Under the pieces are notes generated by a model. It was not told where the DNA came from and did not search any database. It worked only from the letters and a program-made list of their open reading frames with translations. The position numbers and the translations under genes were made by a program. Of a stretch of DNA of 64,000 bases, positions 5,909 to 51,761 are shown one piece after another. The DNA is from Liolophura sinensis (Eukaryota > Mollusca > Polyplacophora > Chitonida > Chitonidae). Position 1 is the first letter of the stretch. Every line of letters begins with the position of its first letter. The DNA lies in NCBI RefSeq assembly GCF_032854445.1, contig NC_088295.1, positions 55,843,249 to 55,907,248 on the forward strand. Direction: 5' to 3'.

Positions 5909-6499
5909 AAAGGTAGAGAAAACATTAAAAATGACATAAAGTTCAGATGAAAGAGTGCGAAAAGTTATTCCTAAATGTGGACTTCACTATTTTTTCCGAT
6001 TTTTCCTTCAGGAGAAAAAGACACTTGAAAATAATTTTTGTATGGTGGGTATTTGGGACCGCCTTTTGGTATTTATAGTGTTCGTTTAATAATGTCATAA
6101 ATGAGTATGTAACACAGGTTTAAAAAAAATTTTTGCACTAGAATCTGCTCTTTTCAACTAACAAATGTATTAAAACTCAATTTGGATCATATTTAAATTT
6201 TAATGTGTTCATAAATATTACCATAAATTAGGTTAAATGCATATGTTTTGATATCAACAACAAATTTACATTCAAATAAATTTATTAGACAAGCATCACA
6301 TCCTTATTTAGAACATTATTATGCAACAACGATAAATACCAAAAATTGGTCTCAAATAACCACCATACCAAAATATTTTATAATACCCCTTTCTATTAGA
6401 AAAAAAATCTAAAAAAATACTAAAAATCCTATTTGCAAATACGTTTAAACGCTCTTTCATCTGATTTTGGCATCATTTTTATGTTTTCTTCTCCTTTAA
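5909..6499. repeat. Decayed inverted repeat (foldback-like), arms about 205 bp
   Basis: The left arm is 5909-6115 and the right arm 6294-6499, in reverse complement. Shared words include TCAGATGAAAGAG, TATGGTGG, TATTTG-GACC and TTGGTATTTAT, interrupted by small indels. The AT-rich spacer is about 180 bp. The outer edge of the right arm (CTTCTCCTTTAA) runs into the segment found in every array unit, so the element may be the source of that part of the unit. No transposase is seen. Confidence 0.65.
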
Positions 6500-7340
6500 C
6501 AGTCTGCGCTTGACAAATAATCATTCCAAACATTTCGCCCAGGTGCAAAATCCTCATCAAGATAGAACTTCTCTTTGGTTATTCGTAAAGACCATATGTT
6601 TGTGTCCAATCCTGTGATAATTCCAGCCTACGCACTATCAACTTACGTTGTTTTGTTTCAGACAATTACATTCCCCGGCACAGTCGCGACAGGCTTGGGG
6701 CATGAAGAAAACTATCAGCCCATTGACGTGTGAGGCAGTTGTCAGCTCTTCACACATGAATATAGGCTACAGAAAACATGTAGAGTGATGTAAATGTAGG
6801 CTCTGAGCTCTAAATAATCCACGCATTAGCAATTTCTCGCGTGTCTAGTTAGGTGTGGTAGTCTGAAGGAATAGTTGAGCCATAAACTGGCATAAACTGG
6901 AAAGGTGAAAAACACCTTATGTCACCCGAATGTTATGTTTTCACTGAAAATGCAGCCGTGGAGTAAGCTACAATATGTAAAGCAAGGAACAAGCCTATCT
7001 ATAACTGGTAACAAACTACATACAATACGGTCCGTTTGTTAAACATAATTGTTTTATTCACGGCTATATACTTCCAAGTAAATATAACTAGCACCTAGAG
7101 TAAGCAGTCTTACTTCAGTTCTGTTTCCCATAGAACTATCTATTGTAGAGAGCAGTAGATCTCTTACCAGTTTTAGTGGTTTCTTTATGCTATTAGCCTT
7201 TCAGGATTGCCTATAGGACTCATTTAACATATGCAACAGCGATATTGAGATAATTCCCTGAGTTTTCATATATTTAATGACCAGTTGGCTGATTACCCAC
7301 ATTTGCATTATTTTACGAAGGCTTATGTTTTTATTTGCTT

Positions 7341-7450
7341 GGGTTTTTACGCCATACTCAAGAATATTTTACTTATACGCCGGCCGCCAGCATTATGGTG
7401 GGGGGAAACCGGGCAGAACCCAAGTGAAACCCACAACCATCCACAGGCTG
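7341..7450 (-). mobile_element. SINE-1 fragment inside unit U0 (second position)
   Basis: Minus-strand 3' half of SINE-1 (TATACGCCGGCCGCCAGCAT, then GGAAACCGGGCAGAACCC). It occupies the same place in U0-U5, so it inserted before the array expanded. Confidence 0.85.
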
Positions 7451-7757
7451 CAATCAGGCACACAGGCTTTCAATCTGCATAACATGGGCGGGATTGTGAT
7501 TAAAGCCTATTATAGAGAGACTTCACGAAATCAATAAACATTCCCGCGGCGGTCAGAGAAACAGCTGTTCAAATGTATGCGCAGAGATTATAAACTAACT
7601 AATTTTTGTAATCATTTCATTTCAGCGATAGTTAAAACTCAGAACTTACTCATGGCAGCCTTTTTCATTTTGGCTGTAAGACCTGACATTTATCCTCAAA
7701 ACTAAATTCAGTTTATCTCCATAGAATTCAAATAAAACAATATTGAAAATAATAACT

Positions 7758-7787
7758 GGTCTTGTCCGGGAATTGAACCCGGGACCT
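7758..7787 (-). pseudogene. tRNA-Pro(CGG) 3' stub, truncated by deletion
   Basis: Only the 3' acceptor strand and T arm remain (AATTGAACCCGGGACCT on the plus strand). The sequence then jumps to GAATTTAGACATGCC, which in other units lies about 600 bp beyond the gene. The junction has a 2-bp CT overlap. The anticodon and A box are gone. Confidence 0.92.
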
Positions 7788-8473
7788 GAATTTAGACATG
7801 CCTTTTAAATCATTTGAAAACTCCTGACTTCTTGTTTATGGTCTCTGTTATATTATTTCTTATTTCATATTCTTTCTTACCGGTGTTTGATGATAAAACC
7901 TAACTTTATGTTGGCTGTTCATTTTGTGAATAATGACGTAATGGACGTCCATTATCGTTGATGACTAGTATACCGGCACGTTTGTTTGTCACGATTTGCT
8001 ATCGTTCAGGGTTTTGAATTCGAAAAATGAAAAACATGATGGTATAATATTCAGCACTTGTTAAAGCTTACGGTGATTATTCTAAATTCTTAGGTGCAAT
8101 ATCCACCATGATACATCTGTTCCACTGGGCTTTGTAAAGACAATATGTTTATTTCCAACAGGGACTGGTGATTGTAACTCCTGTAACCCGACGAAGTATG
8201 TATGTTTGGGGTTTGAGGGTCGTACTTAACCATTTTCGTCACACGACGACGACCTCGGGCAGAGTATCTATGTATGTATTACACTTGGGGTTTGACGATC
8301 CCTGACAGTGTAAGCTTGTTTTCACAGAATGGCTTTCCCAAGCCCAGTACTCAGATTTGGAATATAAAGAATATATTCATGTTGGAGTCAAAATGTGAAT
8401 GTAAATTAAGCACAATTTACATATGGCGGTGTTGTTGAAATAATTTTACCAGTAAATAATTCAAAATCTTGTC

Positions 8474-8545
8474 GGGCTCGTCCGGGAATTGAACCCGGGA
8501 CCTCTCGCACCCAAAGCGAGAATCATACCTCTAGACCAACGAGCC
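8474..8545 (-). tRNA. tRNA-Pro(TGG)
   Basis: 72 nt. Acceptor GGCTCGT pairs with ACGAGCC. The anticodon loop TTTGGGT gives TGG, which reads CCA and CCG. A box TGGTCTAGAGG and B box GGTTCAATTCC are intact. A TATATAATTAC-like element lies about 30 bp upstream on the minus strand. This is the consensus copy of the TGG isoacceptor. Confidence 0.97.
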
Positions 8546-9492
8546 ACCATAAACGGCCAGTTAATGTCTGTAATTATATACAGAAAATTAATAGTCACTA
8601 GTGTTCACTAAGTTACATGTCCCAGAAACACATTTATCGCAATACCAAGCGTCACACATGAACATTGTTATACGTCACTTTACAGTGTACATCATATATA
8701 AAATTACTCATTTTACACAACCATGGCTATCCCTGGTTTTAACATTAAATATTGGTTTTCTATATCGATCTAGTGATATGTCAGACTTTTTACACATCCG
8801 TACATGAATATAGATTAAAGACAAGATATAACCCGATATAGGTATAACACTCAAGTTAGGCACCAAGTATGATGTTCTTCATGAAACTAATTAGGGTAGT
8901 CACGAGATACAAGTAGTTGAAAGCAGTGCCAGTATTATTCGAGGAACATATAACATTGTGTGTGGGGCAAATGACAAGCCGATCTATAAATGTTGGTGAA
9001 CATATTGTACATGTAATGCACATAAAGTTCAACGATTTATCGATAATTCTTTATTTACCGGTATTTACTTGCGAGAGTAAATATTGTCAGAACTAAGACT
9101 AAAGAATCTGGCTTCTATCTTGTCCACCATATAAATAGCAATTCAACAGATTTCTTTTATTATTACTTACTTTATTAAATACTTAACACTGCCAACGTAT
9201 CAAGAGTCTCATGTTAATCACTGACATATAAGATACATGTACATTTATATACAGACCGGTGTTGACATATGATAGGTTTCTCCTCATGGCTGCGTCGTAT
9301 AAAATGACTTACGTAGGAACGTAGTGTACTTAGGTTTTGATGGGATTAATAAGACTAGTCAACTTTATTAAGTTGACACACTCGTGTAGAAATGGAGATT
9401 GTACAGTGACTTTATGGTTCTTTCCATCTTTATAGATATTTATAGTTCATACTGAATTGTGCTCCAGTTAGACCTATATCGGAATAAAAACG

Positions 9493-9500
9493 ATAAATAA
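9493..9500 (+). promoter_or_regulatory. A/T-rich TATA-like element upstream of tRNA-Pro(AGG)
   Basis: ATAAATAA lies about 28-35 bp before the AGG gene, inside a block (TATATCGGAATAAAAACGAT) conserved upstream of all AGG genes, including the palindromic pair. TATA-like upstream elements assist Pol III on tRNA genes in several invertebrates; its role here is inferred. Some copies read ATGAATAA. Confidence 0.4.
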
Positions 9501-9527
9501 CGGGCAAATTCAGCCTCTAACAAGTGT

Positions 9528-9599
9528 GGCTTGTTGGTCTAGTGGTATGATTCTCGCTTAGGGTGCGAGAGGTCCCGGGTTCAATTCCCGGACAAGCCC
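9528..9599 (+). tRNA. tRNA-Pro(AGG)
   Basis: 72 nt, identical to the AGG gene at 2436, with full acceptor, anticodon and T stems and AGG at 9560-9562. It opens unit U1. Confidence 0.97.
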
Positions 9600-9604
9600 G
9601 AATA

Positions 9605-9608: not shown

Positions 9609-9660
9609 CTTTACTTTACACATACAGAACAGTTTCTATTCGAACTGGGCACCTAAATGT

Positions 9661-11052: not shown

Positions 11053-11094
11053 CGCTTTCGGTGCGAGAGATCCCGAGTTCAATTCCCGGCCAAC
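11053..11094 (+). pseudogene. Second AGG-type tRNA relic of the unit (U1)
   Basis: It matches the 3' 42 bases of the AGG gene (GGTGCGAGAGATCCCGAGTT, then CAATTCCCGG) without the 5' half. Upstream is a diverged copy of the AGG 5' flank (GCAATAAAAGCGATAATAAC). The unit therefore once held two AGG genes. Confidence 0.85.
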
Positions 11095-12559: not shown

Positions 12560-12631
12560 GGGCTTGTCCGGGAATTGAACCCGTGACCTCTCGCACCCGA
12601 AGCGAGAATCATACCCCTAGACCAACAAGCC
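12560..12631 (-). tRNA. tRNA-Pro(CGG), T-stem variant
   Basis: 72 nt. Acceptor GGCTTGT/ACAAGCC is complete and loop TTCGGGT gives CGG, which reads only CCG. A C-to-A change at base 48 makes an A-G mismatch in the first T-stem pair. The same variant is in the U2 copy at 17594, so it predates the U1/U2 duplication or was spread by conversion. Probably still foldable. Confidence 0.92.
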
Positions 12632-13825: not shown

Positions 13826-13897
13826 GGGCTCGTCCGGGAATTGAACCCGGGACCTCTCGCACCCAAAGCGAGAATCATACCTCTAGACCAACGAGCC
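13826..13897 (-). tRNA. tRNA-Pro(TGG)
   Basis: Identical to the TGG gene at 8474, with full stems and boxes. Confidence 0.97.
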
Positions 13898-14875: not shown

Positions 14876-14947
14876 GGCTTGTTGGTCTAGTGGTATGATT
14901 CTCGCTTAGGGTGCGAGAGGTCCCGGGTTCAATTCCCGGACAAGCCC
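14876..14947 (+). tRNA. tRNA-Pro(AGG)
   Basis: Identical to the gene at 9528; anticodon AGG at 14908-14910. Opens U2. Confidence 0.97.
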
Positions 14948-17593: not shown

Positions 17594-17665
17594 GGGCTTG
17601 TCCGGGAATTGAACCCGTGACCTCTCGCACCCGAAGCGAGAATCATACCCCCAGACCAACAAGCC
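17594..17665 (-). tRNA. tRNA-Pro(CGG), probably impaired
   Basis: It carries the T-stem A-G mismatch seen at 12560 and also A14 to G (plus-strand CCCCCAGACC instead of CCCCTAGACC). A14 normally makes the reverse-Hoogsteen pair with U8, so the tertiary core and the A box are both affected. The rest is intact. Confidence 0.85.
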
Positions 17666-18914: not shown

Positions 18915-18986
18915 AGCTTTGTCCGGGAATTGAACCCGGGACCTCTCGCACCCAAAGCGAGAATCATACCTCTAGACCAACGAGCC
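18915..18986 (-). pseudogene. tRNA-Pro(TGG) pseudogene
   Basis: The 3' acceptor strand reads ACAAAGC instead of ACGAGCC, giving mismatches at three of seven acceptor pairs, and the discriminator is T. The 5' half, anticodon and T arm are intact, so it might be transcribed but should not mature or be charged. Confidence 0.85.
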
Positions 18987-19629: not shown

Positions 19630-19700
19630 GGCTTGTTGGTCTAGTGGTATGATTCTCGCTTAGGTGCGAGAGGTCCCGGGTTCAATTCCCGGACAAGCCC
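19630..19700 (+). pseudogene. tRNA-Pro(AGG) with 6-nt anticodon loop
   Basis: One G is missing, so the loop reads TTAGGT (6 nt) and the gene is 71 nt. All stems and both boxes are perfect. It is the only AGG copy in the window that differs. Its upstream flank is also cut to about 50 bp by a deletion at 19579. Likely non-decoding, although a base-calling error in a G run is possible. Confidence 0.8.
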
Positions 19701-21182: not shown

Positions 21183-21224
21183 CGCTTTCGCTGCGAGAGA
21201 TCTCGGGTTCAATTCCCGGCCAAC
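21183..21224 (+). pseudogene. AGG-type tRNA relic (U3)
   Basis: Ortholog of 11053-11094, with CTGCGAGAGATCTCGGGTTC; no 5' half. Confidence 0.85.
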
Positions 21225-22687: not shown

Positions 22688-22759
22688 GGGCTTGTCCGGG
22701 AATTGAACCCGGGACCTCTCGCACCCGAAGCGAGAATCATACCCCTAGACCAACAAGCC
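22688..22759 (-). tRNA. tRNA-Pro(CGG)
   Basis: Consensus CGG gene: all stems paired, C at base 48, A14 present, loop TTCGGGT. Confidence 0.97.
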
Positions 22760-23997: not shown

Positions 23998-24069
23998 GGG
24001 CTCGTCCGGGAATTGAACCCGGGACCTCTCGCACCCAAAGCGAGAATCATACCTCTAGACCAACGAGCC
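23998..24069 (-). tRNA. tRNA-Pro(TGG)
   Basis: Identical to the gene at 8474. Confidence 0.97.
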
Positions 24070-25062: not shown

Positions 25063-25134
25063 GGCTTGTTGGTCTAGTGGTATGATTCTCGCTTAGGGTG
25101 CGAGAGGTCCCGGGTTCAATTCCCGGACAAGCCC
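25063..25134 (+). tRNA. tRNA-Pro(AGG)
   Basis: Identical to the gene at 9528. Opens U4. Confidence 0.97.
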
Positions 25135-27863: not shown

Positions 27864-27935
27864 GGGCTTGTCCGGGAATTGAACCCGGGACCTCTCGCAC
27901 CCGAAGCGAGAATCATACCCCTAGACCAACAAGCA
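27864..27935 (-). tRNA. tRNA-Pro(CGG), first acceptor pair broken
   Basis: The first base is T instead of G, so pair 1:72 becomes T-C. Everything else is consensus. Base 1 matters for 5' processing and for proline identity, so function is doubtful. Confidence 0.88.
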
Positions 27936-29151
27936 TCGGTGAGAATAGGATGAAATATATATTCATAAAAAAACGTTAGCTGGTGAGGTGTGGTGCTATG
28001 TTCATATATTATGTATTTATATGTTTATATATATGTTCATATATTATGTGACATATATGCCTGCTAGGCAGTCATGTATGTTGACGCTTATCGTACTACT
28101 TACATATTGTATACCATGTCAAAAGACTGGAGTGTTTTGTATTGATCCGAAAACAGCCTTAAACACATAGGGACAGTTTATCAGCCTGTTCCGTCCTGAA
28201 TGTATTAAATGTTAAATAAAAATGTGGTGTACTCGCACACGGTATAAGAGTTACAGACATCATAAAACAAACTGCCAAAAATCACATATAGGCAAAATAT
28301 TTGTGAGAAATAAAATTCTAATATCTAGGATGTTAATTATTTCATTGACTGGTGTAACCATTTACATTTGTTTTGGTATTTTTTTATCTCAACAAACAGT
28401 GCACAGCATTATCACCTACACAGGTCAACTGAGATACACTTTTAATTTTGATTCTTGAAACTTTATAGCTAGCTTGGTATACATGGTTTAGATAGTGACT
28501 GAATTTAGACATGCTTTTTTATCATTTCAAAACCCTTGATTTCTTTTTTTATGGTCTCTGTTATATTATTTCTTATTTCATATTCTTACCGGTGTTTGAT
28601 GATAAAACCTAACTTTATGTTGGCTATTCATTTTGTGAATATTGACGTAATGGACGTCCATTATCGTTGATGACTAGTATACCGCTAAGAGTGTTTGTCA
28701 CGATTTGCTATCGTTCAGGGTTTTGAATTCGAAAAATGAAAAACATGATGGTATAATATTCAGCTTACGGTGATTATTCTAAATTCTTAGGTGCAATATC
28801 CACCATGATGAAACTGCTCCACTGGGCTTTGTAAAGACAATATGTTTATTTCCAACAGGGACTTGTGATTGTAACTAATGTAACCCGACGAAGTATGTAT
28901 GTTTGGTGTTTGAGGGTCGTACTTAACAATTTTCCTCACACGACGACGACCTCGGGCAGAGTATCTATGTATGTACTATAATTGGGGTTTCATGACCCCT
29001 GACAGTGTAAGCTTGCTTTCACAGAATGGCTTTCCCAAGCCCAGTACTCAGATTTGGAATATAAAGAATATATTCATGTGCCATATTTGGAGTCAAAATG
29101 TGAAGGTGGAAGGTGGAATAATTTTACCAGTGAATAATCAAAATGTTTATC

Positions 29152-29223: not shown

Positions 29224-30212
29224 ACTATAAACGGCTTGTTAATGTCTGTAATTATATACAGAAAATTAATAGTCACTAGTGTTCACTAATTTCATTTGTC
29301 CAACAAACACATTTATCACATTACCAAGCGTTCCACAAGAACATTGTTATATGTCACTTTACAGCGTTATCATACGTAAAATTACTCATTTTACACAACC
29401 ATGTCTAGCCACTGGTTTCACATTAAATATTGATTTTCTATATCGATCTAGTGATGTGTCAGACTTTTTACACATCCGTACATGAATATAGATTAAAGAC
29501 AAGATATAACCCAATATAGGTATAACACTCAAGTTAAGCATTAAGTATGATGTTCTTCATGAAACTAATTAGGATAGTCACGAGATACAAGTAGTTGAAT
29601 GCAGTGGCTGTATTATTCGAGGAACATATAACATTGTGTGTGGGGCAAATGACAAGCCGATCTATAAATGTTGGTGAACATATTGTACATGTAATGCACA
29701 TAAGGTTCAACGATTTATCGATAATTCTTTATTTACCGCTGTTTACTTGCGACAGTAAATTTTGTCAGAACTAAGACTAAAGAATCTGGCTTCTATCTTG
29801 TCCACCATATAAATAGCAATTCAACAGATTTCTTTTATTAATACTTACTTTATTAAATACTTAACACTGCCAACGTATCAAGAGTCTCATGTTAATCGCT
29901 GACATATAAGATACATGTACATTTATATACAGACCGGTGTTGACATATGATAGGTTACATAGCACTTTTCTCCTCATGGCTGCGTCGTATAAAATGACTT
30001 ACGTAGGAACGTAGTGTACTTAGGTTTGATGGGCTTAATAAGACTAACTTTATTAAGTTGACACACTCGTGTAGAAATGGAGATTGTACAGTGACTTTAT
30101 GGTTTTTTCCATCTGTATAGATATTTATAGTTCATACTGAATTGTGCTCCAGTTAGACCTATATTGGAATAAAAACGATGAATAACAGGCAAGTTTAGTC
30201 CTTAACAAGTGT

Positions 30213-30284
30213 GGCTTGTTGGTCTAGTGGTATGATTCTCGCTTAGGGTGCGAGAGGTCCCGGGTTCAATTCCCGGACAAGCCC
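30213..30284 (+). tRNA. tRNA-Pro(AGG)
   Basis: Identical to the gene at 9528. Opens U5. Confidence 0.97.
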
Positions 30285-31770
30285 GAATATTTTCTTTACT
30301 TTACACATACAGAACAGTTTCTATTCGAAATGGGCACCTTAATGTTGCAGTTGTCGTATAAGTGAAATATTCTTGAGTACGGAGTAAAACACCAATTAAA
30401 TTCAATTAAAATCAAACCAAGGGTGGCTTTCATGAAGCATACTTTGAGATAACTAACCCTAGGTGCACTTCATATGTCTACAACATATACTGTCATGGTA
30501 CTTAAGTGCTTACTTATAGCTGGGAGCAGGTTAATAAGCTAGCTGTACAACAAAAATTGGTCTGTGCGTATATATCCTAGCTACAGAGGTATGTGACAAT
30601 CAATAAACAAATCTACGGCAACCTGACAGGTAACAAACGGACTCATCGGGTCAACGTGCACAGATCGGGATAGAACAACAGCTGTTGAAATATTACATGT
30701 ATGTACAGAAATACCAACTTACATTTCTCATGTTTTTATTTCATGAATTATTTTGGCATCTTTTTTATGTTTTCTTCCCCTTTAACAGTCTGCGCTTGAC
30801 AAATAATCATACCAAACATTTTGCCCAGGTGCAAAATCCTCATCAAGATAGAACTTGGTTATTCGTAAAGACCATCTGTTTGTGTCCAATCCTGTGATAA
30901 TCCCAGCCTACGCAGTATCAACTTACAATGCTTTGTTTCAGACAATTACATTCCCCGGTACAGTCGAGACAGGCTTGGGATATAAAGAAAACTATCAGAC
31001 CATTGACGTGTGAGGCAGTTGTCAGCTCTTCCCACATGAATACAGGCTACAGAAAACATGTAGAATGATATAAATGTAGGCTCTGAGCTCTAAATAATCC
31101 ACGCATTAGCTACTTCTCGTGTGTCTAATTAGGTGTGGTAGTCTGGAGGAATAGTTGAGGCATAAACTGGCATAAACTGGAAAGGTGAAAAAACACCTGA
31201 TGTCACCCGAATGTTATGTTTTCACTGAAAATGCAGCCGTGGAGTAAGCTACAATATGTAAAGCAAGGGACAAGCCTATCTATAACTGGTAACAAACTAC
31301 ATACAATACGGTCCGTTTGTTAAACATAATTGTTTTATTCACGGCTATATACTTCCAATTAAATATGGCTAGCACTTAGAGTAAGCAGTCTTACTTCAGT
31401 TCTGTCTCTCAAGAGAACTATCTATTGTAGAGAGCAATAGATCTCTTACCAGTTTTAGTGGTATCTTTATGTTATTAGCAATGCCAGAGTGTCTCATATA
31501 GAGTTACATGTTAATCTGTGTGATATTGCACTAATCTGCTGATGCTTGCATCATATTACTAACATAGGATCAGCGTGAGGTTGAGGTTTGAACGGATTAA
31601 TGCCATCAGCCCATTTATTTTATCAGAAACATGCTTTCGTGGAATCGTAATTATGTCATGGTTTTAGATTGTTATATTTATAGGTGTTTAAATCTCACAT
31701 TTTATTGTGGTCCATTGATATTCTTGACTGCAATAAAAGCGATAAATAACGAAGAAAGTAATTTGATAAA

Positions 31771-31801
31771 CGCTTTCGGTGAGTTCAATTCCCGGTCAAC
31801 C
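31771..31801 (+). pseudogene. AGG-type tRNA relic, shortened (U5)
   Basis: Ortholog of 11053 that lost the CGAGAGATCCC part; the T-loop word GAGTTCAATTCCCGG remains. Confidence 0.75.
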
Positions 31802-32345
31802 ATATCCGTTTTTGTTTACAGCCTGCATTTTTGTGAGGCGTTTACACATACAGAACAGTTTCTATTGGACGAGAAGAGGTTCCTATCCTAGGAAAGATCA
31901 CATCCAACATAGTATACATCTTTCATATAGACCAAACATTTTACTGTATCGCTGAGACGAAAGACTGAGGGTTTTAGTCTCATATCTCTTATGCGAGCTC
32001 AATGTCGATTTACGATAGATCCCCCGACCTGGTCTTAAGATCTTGGAATTGATTATCGCTTTATAGCATATGTATTTTTTGTGAGATGTTTACCAATGCA
32101 GGAAGCCTTTCTCTTGGATGGCTAGGGGTTTCTGTCCTTCAGGGCACGTCACAGACAACTTGGTATGTATCATATTTTATAGACCACATATTTTAGCATG
32201 TTGTTGGGACGTTACACTCAAAAACTTAATCTGTTAACTTTAACACACAGTCTGTTGTCTGAATGATGCTACAATGTATTCTGGTATCTTTACATAATAT
32301 TCTGTCATATCCAACATAAAATCCTGTTGATCATATAGAATCGTT

Positions 32346-32496
32346 ATTTATTTATTTGATTGTTGTTTTATTCCGTACTCAGGAATTATTCACTTATACG
32401 GCGGCGGCCAGGATTATGATGAGAGGAAACCGGACACAGCCCGGATAAAACCTACGACTATCCGTAGGTTGCTGCAAAACCTTCCTCCGTCGACCG
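32346..32496 (-). mobile_element. SINE-1 fragment, first position (U5)
   Basis: Ortholog of 11641-11790. Confidence 0.85.
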
Positions 32497-32849
32497 AATA
32501 GAGTCTTTATGTTGAATTAATAGAATGTGTGTGTTATATTTGACAGAACAATCTGCAGCAATAGCTGAATACATTCTAGCATCACTCAGACAACAGACTT
32601 GCTATTAAAATTAAGAGATGAATTTTTGAGTAGTGTGAGGGATTTATAGTCTCACATTTCTTATGAGGGTCAAGTATCGATTTACGAAGGCTTCAACGAC
32701 TTGGCCTTTCAGGATTGCCTAAAGGACTCATTTAACGAATGCAACAGCGATATTGACAGAATTGCTTGGGTTTTCATATATTTAATGACCAATTGGCTGA
32801 TTACCCACATTTGCATTATTTTACGAAGGCTTATGTTTTTGTTTGATTG

Positions 32850-32951
32850 GGTTTTTACGCCATGCTCAAGAATATTTTACTTATACGCCGGCCGCCAGCA
32901 TTATGGTGGGAGGAAACCGGGCAGAACCTGGTTAAAAACCCACGACCATCA
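32850..32951 (-). mobile_element. SINE-1 fragment, second position (U5)
   Basis: Ortholog of 17195-17296, sharing its deletion. Confidence 0.85.
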
Positions 32952-33248: not shown

Positions 33249-33320
33249 GGGCTTGTCCGGGAATTGAACCCGGGACCTCTCGCACCCGAAGCGAGAATCA
33301 TACCCCTAGACCAACAAGCC
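33249..33320 (-). tRNA. tRNA-Pro(CGG)
   Basis: Consensus CGG gene, identical to 22688. Confidence 0.97.
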
Positions 33321-34580: not shown

Positions 34581-34652
34581 GGGCTCGTCCGGGAATTGAA
34601 CCCGGGACCTCTCGCACCCAAAGCGAGAATCATACCTCTAGACCAACGAGCC
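34581..34652 (-). tRNA. tRNA-Pro(TGG)
   Basis: Identical to the gene at 8474. Confidence 0.97.
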
Positions 34653-35641: not shown

Positions 35642-35713
35642 GGCTTGTTGGTCTAGTGGTATGATTCTCGCTTAGGGTGCGAGAGGTCCCGGGTTCAATT
35701 CCCGGACAAGCCC
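35642..35713 (+). tRNA. tRNA-Pro(AGG)
   Basis: Identical to the gene at 9528. LINE A begins about 93 bp downstream. Confidence 0.97.
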
Positions 35714-35806
35714 GAATATTTTCTTAACTTTACACATACAGAACAGTTTCTATTCGAACTGGGCACCTTAATGTGGCAGTTGTCCTATAAGTGAAAGCTA
35801 CTATAA

Positions 35807-37522
35807 ACGACTTTCAGGCAGAAGGTAAAAGGGGCTCAATAATTCGAGCTAAGGGAAGGTACTTTCCACAACGGGAATCTGATAAAATCTATGAAATGTC
35901 ATAGAGACGAATCATGTATACATGACCAACAAGCAGACATCTCTAAATGTGTGTGCAGTTATTATAAGAGTTTGTATTCTTCTCAAGGGGTTGACACAGA
36001 TGCCCAAAATAAATTTTTGTCCTCAAATTTTTTTGTCCCATGTAGGTCAAAAAGAATTGGATGCTTGCTTTATTAGCTTAGACCAAGAAAAAGCATTTGA
36101 TAGGGTTGAATGGTCTTTCTTATTTAATTGTTTAGAAAAGTATAATTTTGGCCCATCATTTTGCAGATGGGTGAGGTTATTATATACTGATAAAAATAGC
36201 TCTGTATTAGTTAATGGTTATGTTACTGAACAGTTTGCTCTAGAAAGAGGTGTTAGACAAGGATGTGCATTATCACCATTACTGCACATACTTACTTTAG
36301 AACCCTTTATAAAGGCTGTCAGGCAGTGTGAAAGAATTAGAGGTATACCTATGCCTGGTACAAGCAGACAGGCTAAGATTGCTGCACATGCTGACGACGC
36401 TACGATTATTGTGTCTGATGAAGAATCAGCTCATCATGTTATTAAATTGGTCCATGAATTTCGGAGAGCATCAGGGGCTAAACTTAATGTGGCTAAAAGT
36501 GTGGTACTTCCTATTGGTACATGGAAGGTCAGTGACGATACTGTAGCCGGCTTTAGGACTGTGGAAAACATTAAAATATGTGGTGTATATTTTGGTGAAA
36601 ACCAGGAAGATCTAAACATTGAACGTGTACTCAAGAAAGTAAAAAAAAAAAAATGTGTCATGTTGGGGTGACCGGTACCTTACAATGCAGGGCCGGGCTG
36701 TTACAATTAATACTGTTGCCTTGTCTGTTCTGTGGTATATTGGCCAATGTTTTATCTTAACACCAAAATGTATTTTACACGGTACTCAGCATGTCTTTAA
36801 GTTTCTTTGGAATGGCAAACCAGAAGCTATTAAGAGATCTGTTTTGTTTAATGCATATGATAACGGTGGGTTAAATATCCACAATATTTTTTGCAAACTG
36901 AAGGTATTTGCAGTCAAACATGTCTTAAAATTTTTGAACGACACTGGAGATATAGCGGATTGGAGATATTTTGCTATTTACTGGCTTGGAATTTCACTAA
37001 ACCAGGTTAAGCCAGAGTTTGCGAGGTCAAGCTTACCGCACTCGTTAATGCTCACAGCCTTTTATAGGTTTGTGTTGTCTGCCTGGAAAGAATTTTATCA
37101 TGGTCAACAGTTATCTCCAGCAGTGTTTCACAATAAATTTATATATAGTGCCTTTCTGTCCAAGATTTCTAAACCTCCGAGAGTTGTAGCTTCTCAACCA
37201 ATGTTACCGTGGCCTCGGATATGGCGTACAATGTTCAACGCCTTCCTGGATAACAATCTTTTAAATTTTTCATTTAAATTAGTTCATAATATTCTGCCTG
37301 TCAAGGAGATTCTCTTAAGAAGAAATATATGTACAGATGATTTGTGTAGCTTTTGTGGTAAATCCGAAACCAGGAATCATTTGTTTGTAGAAAGCAAACG
37401 TTACACAACAGGTACTGTTGAATTTTCAAAGGCTTTTTTGGATGTATGGAAGCTTTATCCCTGCATTTTCAGAGAAGGATCTAATACACAAATTGTTTGG
37501 TGTTCCGTTATCATAGGACGAG
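35807..37522 (+). mobile_element. LINE A: L1/Tx1-like fragment, truncated at both ends
   Basis: Plus-strand piece of ORF2 from the linker before the RT domain to just after the C-terminal zinc finger. There is no endonuclease, ORF1 or poly(A) tail. At about 36020 roughly 500 bp of the RT N-terminal part are deleted relative to LINE C. Sequence at both ends goes directly into unit DNA with a net loss of about 220 bp, so this is not a clean insertion. Confidence 0.85.
35922..37522 (+). pseudogene. LINE A ORF2 remnant (reverse transcriptase)
   Basis: The RT domain shows LDQEKAFDRVEWSFLF, RGVRQGCALSPLL and the catalytic box as HADDAT (normally FADD). Later come KICGVYFG and the finger CSFCGKSETRNHLF. 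The first open frame ends at 36671 just after a run of 12 A. The protein resumes in another frame at 36655, so the A run has slipped. It is dead: no endonuclease, shifted frame and missing RT N-terminus. Clade assignment (L1/Tx1) comes from motif pattern and from the ORF1 fingers of LINEs B and C. Confidence 0.85.
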
Positions 37523-37685
37523 AATTCAATAAACACATCTACGGCAACCTGACAGGTAACATGACAGACTAACCGGGTCAACGTGCACAGATCGAGATAG
37601 AACAACAGCTGTTGAAATATTACATGTATGTGCAGAAGTACCAACTTACATTTCTCATGTTTTTATTAAAAGGCTATCTTTTAAG

Positions 37686-37783: not shown

Positions 37784-37799
37784 GGTGTCATATTACAGT

Positions 37800-38068
37800 T
37801 GTTTTATTTATTTATTTGATTGTTATTTTACGCCGTACTCAAGAATATTTCACTTATACGACGTCGGCCAGCATTATTGGTGGGTGGAAATGGGGCAGAG
37901 TTCGAGGGAAACCCACGACCATCCGCAGGTTGCTTGAAGACCTTCCCACGTACGGCCGGAGAGGAAGCCAGCATGAGCTGGACTTGAACTCACAGCGACC
38001 ACATTGGTGAGAGACTCCTGGATCATTAAGCTGTGCTAGCGCGCTAACCAAATGAGCCCCGGAGGCCC
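37800..38068 (-). mobile_element. SINE-1, full length (U6)
   Basis: From the ATTTATTTATTT tail to the tRNA-like head ending GAGCCCCGGAGGCCCC. Minus-strand A-box region GGCTCATTTGGTTAGC and B box GTGAGTTCAAGTCC are both present. It is the same insertion as 42916-43192, copied with the unit. Confidence 0.9.
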
Positions 38069-38587
38069 CGGAATGGAGTTAAATCCAAAGAGTAATTTTC
38101 TCATGACTAGCCTTATTTCAATTTTCATCCTCGAAAAGAAATGTATGTAGTGTATCGATGGACAAAGGGAAAATTCAAATCATACAATGATCTGAAAACC
38201 CATTCTGTGACTTATTGATGATGACCTAATTTTACTTTCCTAGGTTTTTTTTTATTTTTTGCATGTCAATAGAATGGAGTGTCATGTGTTGATTTAAAAC
38301 CAAAGTTAAATAAAAAAACTCTCTATATAGTCTTAAATGCATGAGACATTTGAATCAGTCTGATAATAATGTAATCTATTATATTAGTCCCAGATTTAAT
38401 CGAGATAATTATTGCAAACATAGTTCTAGAATTCTAGTGTCGAATTCTTTTCTGTATGGACTTCATGCTTTTGGTCAGATATTTTTATAATGGCTTACAG
38501 GATATGAAACAAATTATGCATGACTGCTGTCGAACAACAGCAATAGGATGGCTTCGTTTCCGGCAATTATGTTTCCCAGTCCAGTCA
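38069..38587. other. Non-array segment shared with 43193 and 57486
   Basis: It contains GAAAAGAAATGTATGTAGTG and ATACAATGATCTGAAAACCC, found again at 43255-43340 and 57490-57560. The word CTTCGTTTCCGGCAATTATG recurs at 57646. No coding potential is seen. Confidence 0.6.
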
Positions 38588-39960: not shown

Positions 39961-40032
39961 GGGCTTGTCCGGGAATTGAACCCGGGACCTCTCGCACCCG
40001 AAGCGAGAAACATACCCCTAGACCAACAAGCC
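39961..40032 (-). tRNA. tRNA-Pro(CGG), D-stem mutation
   Basis: A23 becomes T (plus-strand GAGAAACAT for GAGAATCAT), which breaks one pair of the short D stem. The rest is consensus. Function is doubtful. Confidence 0.88.
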
Positions 40033-41224: not shown

Positions 41225-41296
41225 GGGCTCGTCCGGGAATTGAACCCGGGACCTCTCGCACCCAAAGCGAGAATCATACCTCTAGACCAACGAGCC
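41225..41296 (-). tRNA. tRNA-Pro(TGG)
   Basis: Identical to the gene at 8474. Confidence 0.97.
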
Positions 41297-42273: not shown

Positions 42274-42345
42274 GGCTTGTTGGTCTAGTGGTATGATTCT
42301 CGCTTAGGGTGCGAGAGGTCCCGGGTTCAATTCCCGGACAAGCCC
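42274..42345 (+). tRNA. tRNA-Pro(AGG)
   Basis: Identical to the gene at 9528. Opens U7. Confidence 0.97.
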
Positions 42346-42915: not shown

Positions 42916-43192
42916 ATTCCAGTTATTTTATTTATTTATTTGATTGTTGTTTTACGCCGTACTCAAGAATATTTCACTTATACAACGGCGGCTAGCATTA
43001 TTGGTGGGTGGAAACCGGGCAGAGTCCGGGGGAAACCCACGACCATCCGCAGGCTGCTTTCAGACCTTCACACGTACGGCCGGAGAGGAAGCCAGCATGA
43101 GCTGGACTTGAACTCACAGCGACCGCATTGGTGAGAGACTCCTGGGTCATTACGCTGCGCTAGCGCCCTAACCAAATGAGCCACGGAGGCCC
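42916..43192 (-). mobile_element. SINE-1, full length (U7; reference copy)
   Basis: Tail ATTTATTTATTTGATTG, then GTACTCAAGAATATTTCACT, the body, and a head ending GAGCCACGGAGGCCCC. A and B boxes are readable on the minus strand. It defines the SINE-1 structure used for the fragments. Confidence 0.92.
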
Positions 43193-43620
43193 CGGAATGT
43201 AGTTGAATCCAAAGAGTAATTTTCTCATGACTAGCCTTATTTCAATTTTCATCCTCGAAAAGAAATGCATATAGTGTATCGATGGGCAAAGGGAAAATTC
43301 CAATCATACAATGATCTGAAAACCCATTGTGTAACTTATTGATGATGACCTAATTTTACTTTCTTAGGTTTTTTTCATTATTTTTTTTTGAAAATAAAAT
43401 AATTCTTCACAGATCATAATTCGTATTCATATTAATCTTATTGGATCCGATGGGCAATGCTGCGGTGGATGGATATATACCGGATTTTACATTACCTTTT
43501 TTTTATTTATTTATTTTTTTTGAAAATTGTTGAATTTATTTTAAAGGTGGAATTGAATACCTTGTAAATTAATGTTTCCGAGTCCATATTTGGTAGGTAG
43601 TTCGCAAACAAAATAAATAT

Positions 43621-46600
43621 CCGGTTAAAGTCATTAAACACATCCTGAACGATCTTACATTATACAAACAGATGTTGCCGAGTTTCAGACAGGGAGCAAA
43701 AAACACACAAGCCATCGGTGGCTACATTCTCCTAAGAAGTTTTTCCTTAACAGCAAAATGTCATGAACAAACTTGTAACTGAAGTTGACCAAATTGTGAT
43801 CTAACAATTGATGAAAAACAGTTTTCCATATTCTAACCCAGTCCAAATGCGGCATAGACACCATTGCTCTTGGACAATGTACTATTTTTGTTACAAAATA
43901 TTCATAAATATACCTGCTTGAACACAATGTTACAGGTTGCTGTACACCTGTGGTAAATTCTCTCCAGGCGCTCAGGGCCAGTCTATAGAAAGGTGGAATG
44001 TTTTCAGAATGTGGAACATTGGAACGACAGAATTCACGACAAACATGCCTTAAGGGTAAACCCAACCAATAGATGGCAAAGTATTTCTATTCCGCTGTTG
44101 TTGCATGAATTAATTTTAAAACATGCCGAGTAACAAGTGCTTTTATTTTGCATTCTATATTATGTACGTTTAGGCTTCCATTCCCTATTTTATTATGTAC
44201 GACAACTCTCTTTCGGGCTTGTTATCCCACAAAAAATCTGAACACAGTTTGGGAACATTAATTGACACATTTAGGTGGCAACAGAGTACACTGTGCAGAA
44301 AACCATAAGACAGCTAAAGCAACTGTATTAATTAAGACAGACCTCCCCCGTAGGGTCAAATATCTTCCATTCCATGCTGATACATGTTTCTTTACCTTAC
44401 TTAAAACACGCTCAGAATTGAGTTCTGTTTGATCTTGTCCAAAAAATACCCCACAAATCTTTGAGTTTGTAGTGATGTTAAGCCCACCACTGTCCACGTT
44501 AGTTTCGTCCCAGTTACCAATAGGAAGAACCGTGCTTTTCAACAAGTTGAGTTTTGCTCCTGAGGCTTTTCCATAACTTTCTGCTATTTTAATTACATGC
44601 GGAACAGAACTCTCTTCAGATAAAATTGCAGTCGTATCATCTGCAAATGCCGACACTCTTGTTTCCTTATTTGTGCCGGGTAACCATACACCATTAATTT
44701 CGTCATTGTTTCTAATGGCCGCTATAAAGGGCTCTAAGGACAACACATACAATAATGGTGACAAAGAACAACCCTGTCGAACACCTCGACTCACTTTAAA
44801 TTCTTCCGTTATGTGCCCGTTCACAATAACATTACTTGTAATATCAGTTTATAATAATTGCACCCACTTACAAAAGTCGGGTCCGAAGTTAAATTTCTCC
44901 AAATATTTGAACAAAAATGACCAGTCTACTCTGTCAAAGGCTTTCTCCTGATCTAAGTTAAGAAAGCATCCTTTTAAATCTTTTTGTTCAAAATAATCAT
45001 ATGTATTTCGTAATAAGTGAACGTTGTCAAAAATACTTCGGCCTGGCATTCCACATGTCTGATTCTGAAGTACAATTGTATCGATCACATTTTTAACCGA
45101 TTGCACAAAGCTTTAGAAACAATCTTATAATCTACATTTAGTAAGCTAATTGGCCTCCAGTTTTTTATGCTTTCGGCATTGTCGGGGTCCTTACATAATA
45201 GTGTGATTAACCAAGAACGCTGCGAATTACTTAATCTACCCAAGTTAAAACAGTAATTAACTACATCGGTAAACACACCCGAAAACAGGGGCCAAAATTG
45301 TACATAAAACTCTGCTGACAAACCGTCGCATCCCGGCGAACGGTTTTTAGACATATTTTTTACTGCAAAAAACAACTCCTGTTCAGTCAAAAGGCCTTCG
45401 CAGGCAGTTTTACAATCGTCATTTAACATCGGAAGCGATGACAAGAACTCATCTTGAATGGAGGAGTCATTATCTTGTTCAGTATACAATTTCATATAAT
45501 ACGATCTTATACACTTAGCAATACCTTCCTGAGATTCATGGGATATTGAGGAATCACTATGACAAGTAATACTTTTGATCATCTTCTTTCTGCCCCTACC
45601 AACTTCTCGTCTAATGAAATATTTGGTTGCTTTTTCTCCCTGATCAAAATGAACAGCTTTAGCACGGATAACCGCTCCCGCATGATTCGACTTATAAAGG
45701 GCATTTAGAGTCTTTTTCACATTGTCAATACGCTCACAGTTAATGACTAGACTAGATTTTAACGCATTTAATTCTTGTTCAAGTTCCAACAAATCACGTT
45801 TTTTGTTCATAGATTTCTCCTTACGGTAACTCCGAATTCTGTCTTTACATTCCCTTTTAAATGTCTCCCATCTGTCTATTAGATCTGCATGACCAGTTGT
45901 TCAGACAGAGAAAATATCATGGAAGACAGATTTAATATTATCAACAAGCTCCGTGTCATTTAACACAGAAGTATTACACTTCCAGTAGAACGGCCCCCAT
46001 GAAATGGCATCTTCAAAAGAAATATCAAAAAACAAACACGAATGATCAGAAAAAGACACATGTACAGCATCACACTGGGTTACATACTTAAACACAGCGT
46101 TAGGGATATAAAACCTATCCAATCTACCGGCACACTGGCGCCTAGACCACGTGTAACAATTCTTATTCGGATGCAGTTTCCTAAAAATATCACAAATACC
46201 AAAATCTCTTTTCAAATTATTAATTTCGTCCACTCCATAATTCCTTCCATTAGTGGAATAGCCAGCTCTATCTAATTCAATGCTCTCGACACAATTAAAA
46301 TCCCCACCCATAATAACCAACTCACTGCCCTGCATCACATTATCTAGATTAGAAATAAACTCTTTTCTTTCCTTTGGATTATTAGGGGCATATACACAAA
46401 CAAGGTTTAAAGAAATGCTGTTGACTTCGACCCTAAGGCTTATGTACCGACGGTTAGGGCACCTCTGTATTTTCCGTATAAAGCAGTCTACCGTATACCT
46501 AATAATTATTCCCACCCCACAACGTCGATTTGACCCATACGCCCACCTTGCATCGCCCGGGATTTGCAAATATTTAGTGTCATTATAGTTTTCGAAGTGT

Positions 46601-46770
46601 GTTTCCTGTAAGAATAGTACATCAGTTCCTTTATCGAAAACAAATTGCTTGACATGTTCTTGTTTAGACGGATCCCGTAAACCATTAATGTTTAAAGTCC
46701 CAAAACGAATATTATTTAAGCTCATTATACAAATAAGTAAAGGTAGAGCGTACATACCCATTGTGGTCAA
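43621..46770 (-). pseudogene. LINE B ORF2 (endonuclease-reverse transcriptase), broken
   Basis: The N-terminal APE-type endonuclease is open for 289 residues (46770 to 45901), with RFGTLNINGLRD, LFLQETHF, GGDFNC and FSDHSC in order. A single TGA at 45901-45903 interrupts it. The same frame continues to 45085, with NWRPISLLNVDYKIVSKALC. A frameshift near 45095 follows, then PGRSIFDNVHLLRN, LDQEKAFDRVDWSFLFKYLE, a TAA at 44849-44851 and the RT core with RGVRQGCSLSPLLY and AFADDTTA. More lesions follow before the C-terminal part (44065-43685). The catalytic motifs survive, so inactivation is moderately recent. Confidence 0.88.
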
Positions 46771-46797
46771 ATAAGAAAGTCCTAATTACGCTACAAC

Positions 46798-48206
46798 TCA
46801 TTTGTCTCTTTTCATTCGCTGCCTCGCACGAGAAGCAAGCGATTTTCTTTTCCTGTATTCCAGAAGCATGGTGTCCCCCTCCTGAGATGGAGTCGGCGTC
46901 ATACGCTCTGACGACTGATCGGCATCAACATCATCATAATCAGTAGGATGGGAACTGGGCGGGATAGATGACGCTGCCTCTTCGGCTGTACTGCCATTGT
47001 CCAACTTAGCTCGCTTTTCCTCGACTGGGACTGGTGAACGCACGTCGGGAGCGTGCACGTCAGCCACCACCACATTCTTCACCCTCGGGATAGCTGATGA
47101 CGTTTCATTATCACCAACATCCACTTCTTCGGTGTTCTTAGTATTCTCCCGGACGTCCATCTCCTTATCAGACTCGCTGTCATCGCTGACGTCATCATCG
47201 GCGCTGTCGTCACCATTCCCGTCGATTTCGTCTTCGTTCTCTTCGCTGTCTTGAACCAGTTCCCTTGCAGGTGCGTTGAATGGGTCATCATCGTCGCTGA
47301 CGTCAACATCAACGTCATCTTGTTTTACGGCGTCTTCCTTATTATACTGGCGCATAGACGATAGGTTTCCCTTAACTCGCGTCGCGTACGATATTACTCT
47401 CGCACAACAGTCACTGACCGTATGAAGCCCTGAGTCACACATTCGGCATGGATCTGTACAGTCCTTCTCTGTATGAGGATTCTCATGGGGGGAGAAACCG
47501 TCGCAGTTAGAACACCACAGTGCCCTACACTCTGCCGCCTTGTGTGATTTTTGGCCACACTTCCGACATTCATAGGTTTGCCCGGGGTAGGTAAACATAA
47601 CAATGTCACCACCGAAATTAATAAAATTTGGTACATATCGAACTTTGTGACACCTAAATCTGTAAATCCGAATACCTGTCCGAACATGTGAGAGCTCCGG
47701 GTCTGAAAATCTGGGTTTCGTCACACCCAGGCATTCACCATAGGGTTTCAAAGCTGCCTCGATAGTGTCATCTGACATTTCATCCGGTGCCCAGTGGGCC
47801 GTCAGATTCAGGCATAATAGGCCACGTCGTTCCATTTATAACAACATTGGATTTACTCACTAGGACATTATGCCCAGCCACTGTAGACACGCGGAGATAA
47901 AAGTGTTTCTTTAAATAATTCTTCTGAAAACTTATTAGCTCTGTCTTGATATTTAACACACTTGACAGAAAAGGAATAAAGTCCTTCTGGACTGCCGTAG
48001 AAAATGCCGGGCTGTTTCGTGTAGAGATTGACACAGACAAAGTTCTGCATGGCCTGTTTACAGGCGAAAACGACACGGGCTTGGACATACCTGATCCAAC
48101 GGGGCACACGCCCTTCACCAAACAGTAACCACTGGCCAAACTCAAGCTCTGTGGGCACCCAGTTCACCAAATAAATCAGTCTCAAAAAAAAGCGTTGTTG
48201 TTGCAC
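46798..48206 (-). pseudogene. LINE B ORF1 (zinc-knuckle protein), frameshifted
   Basis: The N-terminal part lies in 48145-47780 and the C-terminal 345 residues in 47835-46798, one frame apart. The C-terminal part has three Cys/His fingers: CRKCGQKSHKAAEC, CSNCDGFSPHENPHTEKDC and CRMCDSGLHTVSDC. A long Asp/Glu-rich stretch and a basic end follow. RNA binding is the expected role. LINE C is broken at about the same point but by a different frame offset. Confidence 0.85.
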
Positions 48207-48323
48207 AAATGTGTAAACAGCAGAGAATAACCGACACGTCCGTTCACTTCGGCGTCTAGCACACTCCCTATTCAGTTTATCTGCCTAAAATTCAAATAAA
48301 ACAATACTGAAAATAAAAAAACT

Positions 48324-48395
48324 GGGCTTGTCCGGGAATTGAACCAGGTACCTCTCGCACCCGAAGCGAGAATCACACCCCTAGACCAACAAGCC
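48324..48395 (-). tRNA. tRNA-Pro(CGG), multiply mutated, probable pseudogene
   Basis: Three changes: base 47 C to A, base 50 G to T (a T-C mismatch inside the T stem and a damaged B box), and A at base 20 (canonical A21) to G. The anticodon and acceptor stems are intact. Confidence 0.85.
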
Positions 48396-49635: not shown

Positions 49636-49707
49636 GGGCTCGTCCGGGAATTGAACCCGGGACCTCTCGCACCCAAAGCGAGAATCATACCTCTAGACCA
49701 ACGATCC
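49636..49707 (-). tRNA. tRNA-Pro(TGG), acceptor mismatch
   Basis: C3 becomes A (plus-strand ACGATCC for ACGAGCC), breaking pair 3:70. Otherwise consensus; activity uncertain. Confidence 0.9.
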
Positions 49708-50464
49708 ACTATAAACGGCTTGTTAATGTCTGTAATTATATACAGAAAATTAATAGTCACTAGTGTTCACTAATTTCATTTGTCCAACAAACACATTTAT
49801 CACATTACAAAGATTTCCACATGAACATTGTTATTTGTCACTTTACGTTATCATACGTAAAATTACTCATTTTACACAACCATGGCTAGCCCCTGGTTTC
49901 ACATTAAATATTGATTTTCTGTATCGATCTAGTGATGTGTCAGACTTTTTACACATCCGTACATGAATATAGATTAAAGACAAGATATAACCCGATATAG
50001 GTATAACACTCAAGTTAGGCACCAAGTATGATGTTCTTCATGAAACTAATTAGGGTAGTCACGAGATACAAGTAGTTGAAAGTAGTGCCAGTATTATTCG
50101 AGGAACATATAACATTGTGTGTGGGGCAAATGACAAGCCGATCTATAAATGCTGGTGAACATATTGTACATAATGCACATAAGGTTCAACGATTTATCGA
50201 TAATTCTTTATTTACCGCTATTTACTTCCGAGAGTAAATTTTGTCAGAACTAAGACTAAAGAATCTGGCTTCTATCTTGTCCACCATATAAATAGCAATT
50301 CAACAGATTTCTTTTATTGCTTTCACATGTGTCTTAAATACTTAACACTGCCAACGTATCAAGAGTCGCATGTTAATCACTGACATATAAGATACATGTA
50401 CATGTGACCTGTTTCCCGTCCAATAGAAACTGTTCCGTATATGTAAAGAAAAAGAAAACCACTA

Positions 50465-50536
50465 GGGCTTGTCCGGGAATTGAACCCGGGACCTCTCGCA
50501 CCCTAAGCGAGAATCATACCACTAGACCAACAAGCC
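50465..50536 (-). tRNA. tRNA-Pro(AGG), inverted copy
   Basis: Consensus AGG gene on the minus strand, the only AGG gene in the window so oriented. It lies in the left palindrome arm, head-to-head with 51033. Confidence 0.97.
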
Positions 50537-50730
50537 ACACTTGCATAGAACTGAACTTGCCCGTTATTTGTCGTTTTTATTCCGATATAGGCCAAACTGG
50601 AGTACAATTCAGTATGAACTATAAATATCTGTAAAGATGGAAAGAACCAGAAAATCACTGTACAGTCGCGATTTCAAAACTAGTGTGTTATTAATAGTTA
50701 TATATATATCTTTAATATATCTTTAATAGT

Positions 50731-50735
50731 TGTTC

Positions 50736-50786
<51 letters not shown>
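50731..50786. repeat. (TA)n microsatellite at the palindrome centre
   Basis: A TA run of about 28 units occupies the loop of the palindrome. Confidence 0.95.
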
Positions 50787-50787
<1 letters not shown>

Positions 50788-50828
50788 CTATTAATAACAC
50801 ACTAGTTTTGAAATCGCGACTGTACAGT

Positions 50829-50996
50829 GATTTTATGGTTCTTTCCATCTTTACAGATATTTATAGTTCATACTGAATTGTACTCCAGTTTGGCCTATAT
50901 CGGAATAAAAACGATTTTATGGTTCTTTCCATCTTTACAGATATTTATAGTTCATACTGAATTGTACTCCAGTTTGGCCTATATCGGAATAAAAAC
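50829..50996. repeat. 84-bp tandem duplication of the AGG upstream block
   Basis: Two copies with an 84-bp period, each with ATGGTTCTTTCCATCTTTAC and GGCCTATATCGGAATAAAAA. Only the right palindrome arm has it. Confidence 0.95.
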
Positions 50997-51032
50997 GACA
51001 AATAACGGGCAAGTTCAGTTCTATGCAAGTGT

Positions 51033-51104
51033 GGCTTGTTGGTCTAGTGGTATGATTCTCGCTTAGGGTGCGAGAGGTCCCGGGTTCAATTCCCGGACAA
51101 GCCC
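51033..51104 (+). tRNA. tRNA-Pro(AGG), right palindrome arm
   Basis: Consensus AGG gene. The duplicated upstream block precedes it, and it is followed by TTTTCTTTTTC, a stronger terminator than in the array. It opens the compact unit ending in the CGG gene at 51690. Confidence 0.97.
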
Positions 51105-51689
51105 TAGTGTTTTCTTTTTCTTTACATATACGGAACAGTTTCTATTGGACGGGAAACAGGTCACATTCAACAGACAATAGTGTAAGGCATTTAGTCTAAT
51201 ATCTTTTGCGTGAGTAAAATATCGATTTATGATAGCTTTCACAACCTGGATTTAAGATTACCTAAAGGATTAAAGATTTTATTCATATAAGCAATGCCAC
51301 AACGACATGAACATAGTTGTTCAGATTTATATATTTAATGACTAACTGGCGGATTACTAACGTTGACCTAATTTTACCCAGGTTTATAACAAGAGTGGAT
51401 CTATAGTTTATAGTTATATACAGACTTGACAAAATCAATAAACACACCACCTGAAAGGCAGCTGATGGACTACCCACGTGCAGAGAAATCAAACTGATTT
51501 CAAATATACGCATGCGTTGAGATTTTAAACTGTATTAACTTACTTAATACATCTGGTTAATTAATTTTACGGATGTAGGAAGAGTAGCCTTATTTTACTT
51601 TACCCGCTGGAAGAATTCCTTTATCGTCCAGTTTATAAAGAAAAAAATATTCTTCCAGTTTATACAGAAATAGGGTTGAAAAGTAAACA

Positions 51690-51761
51690 GGGCTTGTCCG
51701 GGAATTGAACCCGGGACCTCTCGCACCCGAAGCGAGAATCATACCCCTAGACCAACAAGCC
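51690..51761 (-). tRNA. tRNA-Pro(CGG)
   Basis: Consensus CGG gene in the compact unit. LINE C lies 138-150 bp upstream of its 5' end. Confidence 0.97.

Follow-up and report, generated by a model that had tools for sequence, protein, structure and literature searches.

A tandem array of proline tRNA genes in a chiton genome and an L1-like LINE family positioned downstream of RNA polymerase III genes

TRE3, an L1-clade long interspersed nuclear element (LINE) of Dictyostelium, inserts 40–150 bp downstream of transfer RNA (tRNA) genes and in the same orientation as the gene (excerpts of PMC5911963 and PMC5006619). A 2018 review, in the excerpts available, describes downstream insertion as limited to dictyostelids, in which TRE3 shares the habit with Skipper-2; another Dictyostelium element, TRE5-A, has been reported to bind TFIIIB and to depend on the B box (PMC5911963). 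Multicopy small RNA genes are also the target of certain target-specific LINEs that insert into tRNA genes and of Dada DNA transposons; as characterized in the excerpted accounts, these differ in using fixed sites inside the gene, with no downstream window (PMC4640811, PMC8869645). Here we describe a window of 64,000 nucleotides from the chiton Liolophura sinensis (C1:55,843,249–55,907,248, on contig NC_088295.1 of assembly GCF_032854445.1, which comprises 609 Mb in 632 contigs). The window holds a tandem array of proline tRNA (tRNA-Pro) genes and three L1-like LINEs. The locus is very probably a birth-and-death array of proline tRNA genes (a tDNA array) that hosts an L1-like LINE family landing downstream of genes of RNA polymerase III (Pol III).

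Tandem tRNA arrays are already known, and the sources excerpted here offer three points of comparison. The tRNA variable-number tandem repeat at human 1q23.3 likewise consists of kilobase-scale tandem units in which tRNA genes, several per unit, occupy both strands, but its 7.3-kb units are 98% identical, carry a mixture of Leu, Gly, Glu and Asp genes and occur in 9–43 copies (PMC4041453). In Arabidopsis, arrays for a single amino acid, proline, exist; these are plant loci made of tandem tRNA-Pro repeats, and the excerpts describe no three-isoacceptor proline unit (PMC11700998, PMC12308677). The same excerpts tie another Arabidopsis cluster, Ser-Tyr-Tyr (SYY), to a Ser/Tyr/Pro-rich glycoprotein and to root-tip cells. 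Entamoeba resembles the present case in having tandem tRNA arrays genome-wide, but it is a protist whose arrays mix tRNAs and include short tandem repeats within the units (PMC2652664). Within this partly excerpted literature, a unit with three proline isoacceptors is a variant that we have not met.

Within the window, ARAGORN identified 26 tRNA-Pro genes: 10 with anticodon AGG (including a damaged copy at 19630), 8 with CGG and 8 with TGG. An Rfam scan recovered 25 tRNA-Pro genes at or above the gathering score; the CGG gene at 48324 is absent from these matches and from a looser Rfam scan of the window. The genes are laid out in seven AGG–CGG–TGG units, preceded by a partial first unit (U0, 6464–7787), which ends within a CGG gene, and followed by a compact, partly inverted last unit. 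Homologous units run head to tail with tRNA genes in each, and the locus is a real tandem array devoted to proline that combines the three eukaryotic proline anticodons (AGG, CGG and TGG) in one unit. An initial annotation of this DNA had proposed the seven units with their gene order and strands, all of which ARAGORN bears out. Its tally of 9 AGG, 9 CGG and 8 TGG array loci stands for AGG and TGG; complete CGG genes number eight, and the ninth is a 30-nt 3′ remnant (7758–7787, minus strand). A further AGG gene, at 2436, had been placed outside the array and in fact sits in an eroded unit, between TGG and CGG relics.

Pairwise identity among units U0–U7 is 91.4–95.2%; the units, which differ by 5–9%, are therefore too diverged to be the product of assembly stutter, and we rejected that explanation. 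The sole run of Ns in the window (200 N at ~59.1 kb) lies to the right of the array; a 56-bp tandem repeat at 58654–59131 runs into this gap. Measured from CGG gene to CGG gene, four full units are 5,034–5,385 bp long. The following two units, counted between CGG genes called by ARAGORN, span ~6.7 and ~8.4 kb; a LINE piece within each accounts for the extra length of these units (U6 and U7). We rejected a protein gene within the unit, as a Pfam search of 28000–32900 in all six frames gave nothing at E 0.01, and besides the tRNAs the only Rfam match in the unit was a sub-threshold one that overlaps a TGG gene. A TATA-like element upstream of the TGG genes is conserved within the window array; a promoter common to the arrays was considered and rejected, as the 60 bases preceding the genes appear unrelated in the arrays on C10 and C12 that are described below. 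A search of viral contigs with the AGG gene as query gave no match.

Gene bodies and flanks of the array have changed at very different rates. Counted against the column majority in 7 of the 10 AGG, all 8 TGG and 7 of the 8 CGG genes (leaving out AGG 2436, 50465 and 51033 and CGG 51690), substitutions affect 0/503 gene positions versus 112/1606 flank positions for AGG (Fisher P = 3e-14), 4/575 versus 112/1823 for TGG (P = 1e-9) and 8/504 versus 166/1601 for CGG (P = 2e-12), with flank rates of 6–10% across isoacceptors. Intact genes make up 9/10 of the AGG, 6/8 of the TGG and 3/8 of the CGG genes in the window (P = 0.06 for the difference), and 5/8 CGG genes deviate from the CGG consensus. We read these patterns as signs of selection, with gene bodies under constraint, and do not take them to establish a fixed ranking of the isoacceptors. 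Two points weigh against a stronger reading. The excess of gene-body change in CGG over the other two combined reaches only P = 0.024 for substitutions and P = 0.06 for intact genes; and AGG itself decays in one of the C12 arrays (C12a), where 4/12 arms are consensus-intact, so the order AGG > TGG > CGG is local to the window array. It is unlikely that the array is a neutral by-product, in which recombination grows and shrinks arrays and intact genes merely reflect broken copies being tolerated until they are lost: such an account fits the damaged genes, the relics at both edges and the mosaic units, but not gene bodies that are 4–9 fold less changed than their flanks (TGG and CGG) or free of substitutions altogether (AGG).

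The initial annotation regarded a large proline-dedicated array with a full decoding set as unusual. The array and the combination of AGG, CGG and TGG in one unit hold up; the idea of a singular locus does not, in view of three further proline arrays and of arrays for Asp and Gly. An exact genome search for the proline anticodon arm found 70 arms, 25 of them inside the window. A TGG-only array on C10 accounts for 17, two arrays of AGG and CGG genes on C12 (C12a and C12b, the latter possibly extending past the sequence examined) account for 15 and 8, and the other 5 are dispersed. For the arrays on C10 and C12, ARAGORN confirms the arm search and finds additional genes whose arms are altered. 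All three isoacceptors occur together only in the window array, among the four proline arrays of the genome. Consensus-intact proline genes number 47 genome-wide and 18 in the window (9/19 AGG, 6/22 TGG and 3/6 CGG). With 25/70 arms and 18/47 intact genes, the window therefore holds a minority of the proline genes. The CGG genes of C12a and C12b (L043–L049) are AGG genes with one anticodon base changed, and a D-loop base distinguishes them from the CGG genes of C1, which suggests that the C12 and C1 CGG genes arose by separate anticodon switches. LINEs account for the longest matches from one array to another.

Tandem tRNA gene arrays are common in this genome. A search for Asp and Gly arms matched 109 places; among the 100 listed, an array at C2:25,514,060–25,578,693 has at least 73 Asp-type arms (a single one bears a Gly-type anticodon), mostly spaced at 351 bp and interrupted by five gaps of 5.5–8.3 kb; a LINE copy (L076) lies in one of these gaps. 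More Gly arrays appear on C3 among the same listed matches, and in short stretches beside LINE copies, Leu, Glu, Gln, Cys, Trp or 5S genes stand in tandem groups of two or more. These arrays bear on the possibility, which we consider doubtful, that the window array was built and is kept by selection for a high capacity to decode proline, as proline-rich secreted proteins, for instance, might require. Such a dosage role would suit the identity of 9/10 AGG genes amid flanks that differ by 7%, and the location of 65/70 exact proline arms within arrays; it sits poorly with the changes in 5/8 CGG genes of the window, and because Asp and Gly form large arrays too, arrays are not peculiar to proline. 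Under the birth-and-death reading that we prefer, a ~5-kb cassette, TGG(−)/AGG(+)/CGG(−), would have been multiplied by local duplication, presumably through unequal crossing-over. Its genes would be transcribed by Pol III, selection would hold the gene bodies while spacers diverge by 5–9%, CGG copies would decay most in the window array, and the left edge would erode to relics.

The LINEs, a feature absent from the initial annotation, are in our judgement the most unusual part of the locus. Each of the three lies on the strand of a tRNA-Pro gene or relic and begins 54–130 bp downstream of it. TE1 (35797–37525, plus strand), a piece with reverse transcriptase and zf-RVT domains and no visible poly-A, starts 83 bp downstream of AGG 35642. 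TE2 (43541–48269, minus strand), which encodes an ORF1 with CCHC-like motifs, an endonuclease and a reverse transcriptase, starts 54 bp downstream of CGG 48324 and lacks the final ~0.4 kb that the C10 and C12b copies have. TE3 (51915–57053, minus strand), with poly-A at 51915–51928 and a 13-nt target-site duplication, starts 130 bp downstream of a TGG-type relic at ~57.2 kb and represents a second LINE family. The window LINEs match the Pfam domains EEP and RVT_1, and for both the best named match in the PDB is LINE-1 ORF2p. An endonuclease of the apurinic/apyrimidinic endonuclease (APE) type, a reverse transcriptase, a poly-A tail and variable target-site duplications together characterize the LINE family as L1-like, APE-type retrotransposons without long terminal repeats (non-LTR). 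L1-Tx1 elements are listed as common in molluscs in the excerpt of PMC10294476. The TE2 family is present in the three other proline arrays at 92–98% identity, with breaks, and a further LINE subfamily in C10 and C12b also lies downstream on the same strand (gaps by eye ~20, 65 and 345 bp).

The same placement recurs across the genome. A search with 701 bases of TE2 gave 67 candidates, of which 40 were scored; all counts for the family rest on these 40. Three are the window copy and the C12a and C12b copies; for the remaining 37, the 5′ flank was examined, and a 5′ end could be located in 31. Family copies are 93–98% identical over the 701-bp query. In 29/31 copies, the upstream flank of 0.7–1.1 kb contains a Pol III gene on the strand of the LINE (27 tRNA and 2 5S ribosomal RNA (rRNA) genes), and an antisense Pol III gene is present in 7/31. 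The nearest gene is on the same strand in 28/30 (P = 4e-7), and the chance of a Pol III gene per flank is 0.8% even if 10,000 Pol III genes are assumed. The median gap from gene to LINE is 115 bp; it is 250 bp or less in 24/31 copies and 34–276 bp in 25/31. ARAGORN assigns the adjacent tRNA genes to Asp, Phe, Leu, Met, Ser, Ile, Gly, His, Glu, Cys and Thr which, with Pro, makes twelve tRNA isotypes in addition to 5S. The two 5S cases (L059 and L079, C6 ~20.47–20.49 Mb) are tandem 5S rRNA genes with the LINE 82 and 132 bp downstream. Where 3′ ends were examined (20 of the 31 copies), the family tail and an A run were found in 20/20, and a clean duplication (a shared word of at least 8 nt beside both ends) in 9/20, as well as in the C10 and C12b copies. 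No tRNA was found in a control of 26.2 kb of loci not picked for tRNAs (L007, L008, L050 and L051).

Several observations count against so regular a habit. The control is small, at 26.2 kb. One copy (L061) has no Pol III gene in the examined flank, although it lies within a Gly array, ~1.3 kb past a Gly arm, and another (L083) has an antisense gene only. Four gaps exceed 400 bp (476, 476, 675 and 860): the two 476-bp copies share one junction, the 675-bp flank is partly masked, and in the 860-bp case a truncated Ile relic lies closer than the intact gene (by eye). As L056 and L057 share one junction, the copies represent at most 30 events. Six of the 37 copies lack a usable 5′ end; five of these have a same-strand tRNA in the examined stretch and one has none. 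A 5′-truncated C12a copy begins ~1 kb past the nearest tRNA. Finally, 11/20 copies have no clean short duplication and show apparently longer duplications, deletions or none visible.

Rather than reflecting targeting, the association could be one of survival, with insertions elsewhere removed, or of LINEs copied along with the arrays. The junction shared by L056 and L057 demonstrates that co-duplication occurs. We nevertheless regard this account of the family as very unlikely. The copies are 93–98% identical and therefore young; they adjoin many different genes, have different flanks and carry their own target-site duplications; a 609-Mb genome offers ample harmless space; and survival predicts neither a single strand nor a 115-bp median gap. 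That the LINE endonuclease recognizes a short DNA word downstream of tRNA genes, such as a T-rich terminator, and not the Pol III machinery, seems improbable: the LINE has an L1-like endonuclease and runs of T mark the ends of Pol III genes, but no word common to the target-site duplications is evident and the gaps range over 34–276 bp in 25/31 copies. Because the targets share gene class and strand and no evident DNA word, the LINE most likely reads the Pol III complex, be it through TFIIIC, TFIIIB or terminating Pol III.

In our favoured account, the L1-like family inserts in the same orientation, mostly ~50–150 bp downstream of Pol III genes (many tRNA isotypes and 5S rRNA). Target-primed reverse transcription, by analogy with related elements, would then leave a poly-A copy directed away from the gene. 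TE1–TE3 would be such insertions and would account for the long units and the right-hand end of the array. Like TRE3, this is an L1-clade LINE with ORF1 and an ORF2 of APE, reverse transcriptase and zinc finger that is found downstream in the same orientation; the spread of its gaps is wider than that of TRE3. Unlike TRE3, whose hosts, according to the excerpts, are social amoebae with compact genomes, it resides in a genome of 609 Mb, in tandem arrays and beside 5S genes too (PMC5911963, PMC5006619). We liken it to TRE3 by behaviour alone and do not claim membership of the TRE elements. In the open-licence literature we found no paper describing a metazoan non-LTR LINE downstream of tRNA genes; an earlier description elsewhere is possible. 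By this analogy, an L1-like lineage of several subfamilies has probably evolved TRE3-like targeting independently: it would recognize assembled Pol III machinery and insert downstream of tRNA and 5S genes, oriented as they are. For such a lineage, tandem tDNA arrays would be a safe niche, and their size may co-evolve with the load of LINEs.

The individual genes of the array were all called by ARAGORN. TGG genes lie on the minus strand at 8474–8545, 13826–13897, 23998–24069, 29152–29223, 34581–34652 and 41225–41296, at 18915–18986 (damaged acceptor end) and at 49636–49707 (one change). AGG genes occupy 9528–9599, 14876–14947, 25063–25134, 30213–30284, 35642–35713 and 42274–42345 on the plus strand; the copy at 19630–19700 (plus strand) is without one anticodon-loop base. 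CGG genes, on the minus strand, match the consensus at 22688–22759, 33249–33320 and 51690–51761, and carry one change at 12560–12631, 27864–27935 and 39961–40032, two at 17594–17665 and three at 48324–48395, the last being the gene not found by Rfam. The compact last unit includes a near-perfect inverted duplication (50402–51166) with two AGG genes (50465–50536, minus strand, and 51033–51104, plus strand; ARAGORN and Rfam) head to head on either side of an (AT)n tract; upstream of the right-hand AGG gene, 84 bp are exactly duplicated in tandem.

At the left edge, a TGG relic (5′ part, 1110–1166, minus strand, 94% identity over 33 nt) lies to the left and a CGG relic (4187–4254, minus strand, from relic search and alignment) to the right of AGG 2436 (2436–2507, plus strand; ARAGORN and Rfam), in the order and on the strands of the unit. 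The DNA around this AGG gene aligns with the unit at ~64% identity; the gene itself is identical to other AGG genes despite the erosion of its unit. On the right, beyond the end set by the initial annotation, a relic at ~57184–57255 (minus strand) is nearest CGG in its gene part, and its flank aligns with the TGG flank. Relics score 58–96 and the 30-nt CGG remnant 56, compared with a best score of 30 among 2,000 tRNA-free stretches of the window. A short tRNA-Pro-like relic also occurs inside the unit between AGG and CGG (11053–11089 and 21183–21219), which suggests a lost fourth gene of the unit. Dispersed short repeats, which we take to resemble molluscan SINEs (short interspersed nuclear elements), occur at 37799–38070, 42923–43194 and 4649–4837, elsewhere in the window and on other chromosomes.

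With its eight diverged cassettes, the array permits a copy-by-copy comparison of selection on the three isoacceptors within an array-rich genome. Dictyostelid genomes are compact and safe insertion sites in them are scarce, as stated in the excerpts of PMC5911963. If our reading of the LINE family is correct, downstream same-strand targeting of Pol III genes would not need a compact genome, LINEs would have evolved the downstream Pol III habit more than once, and the family would offer a system for studying site-directed insertion into redundant loci.

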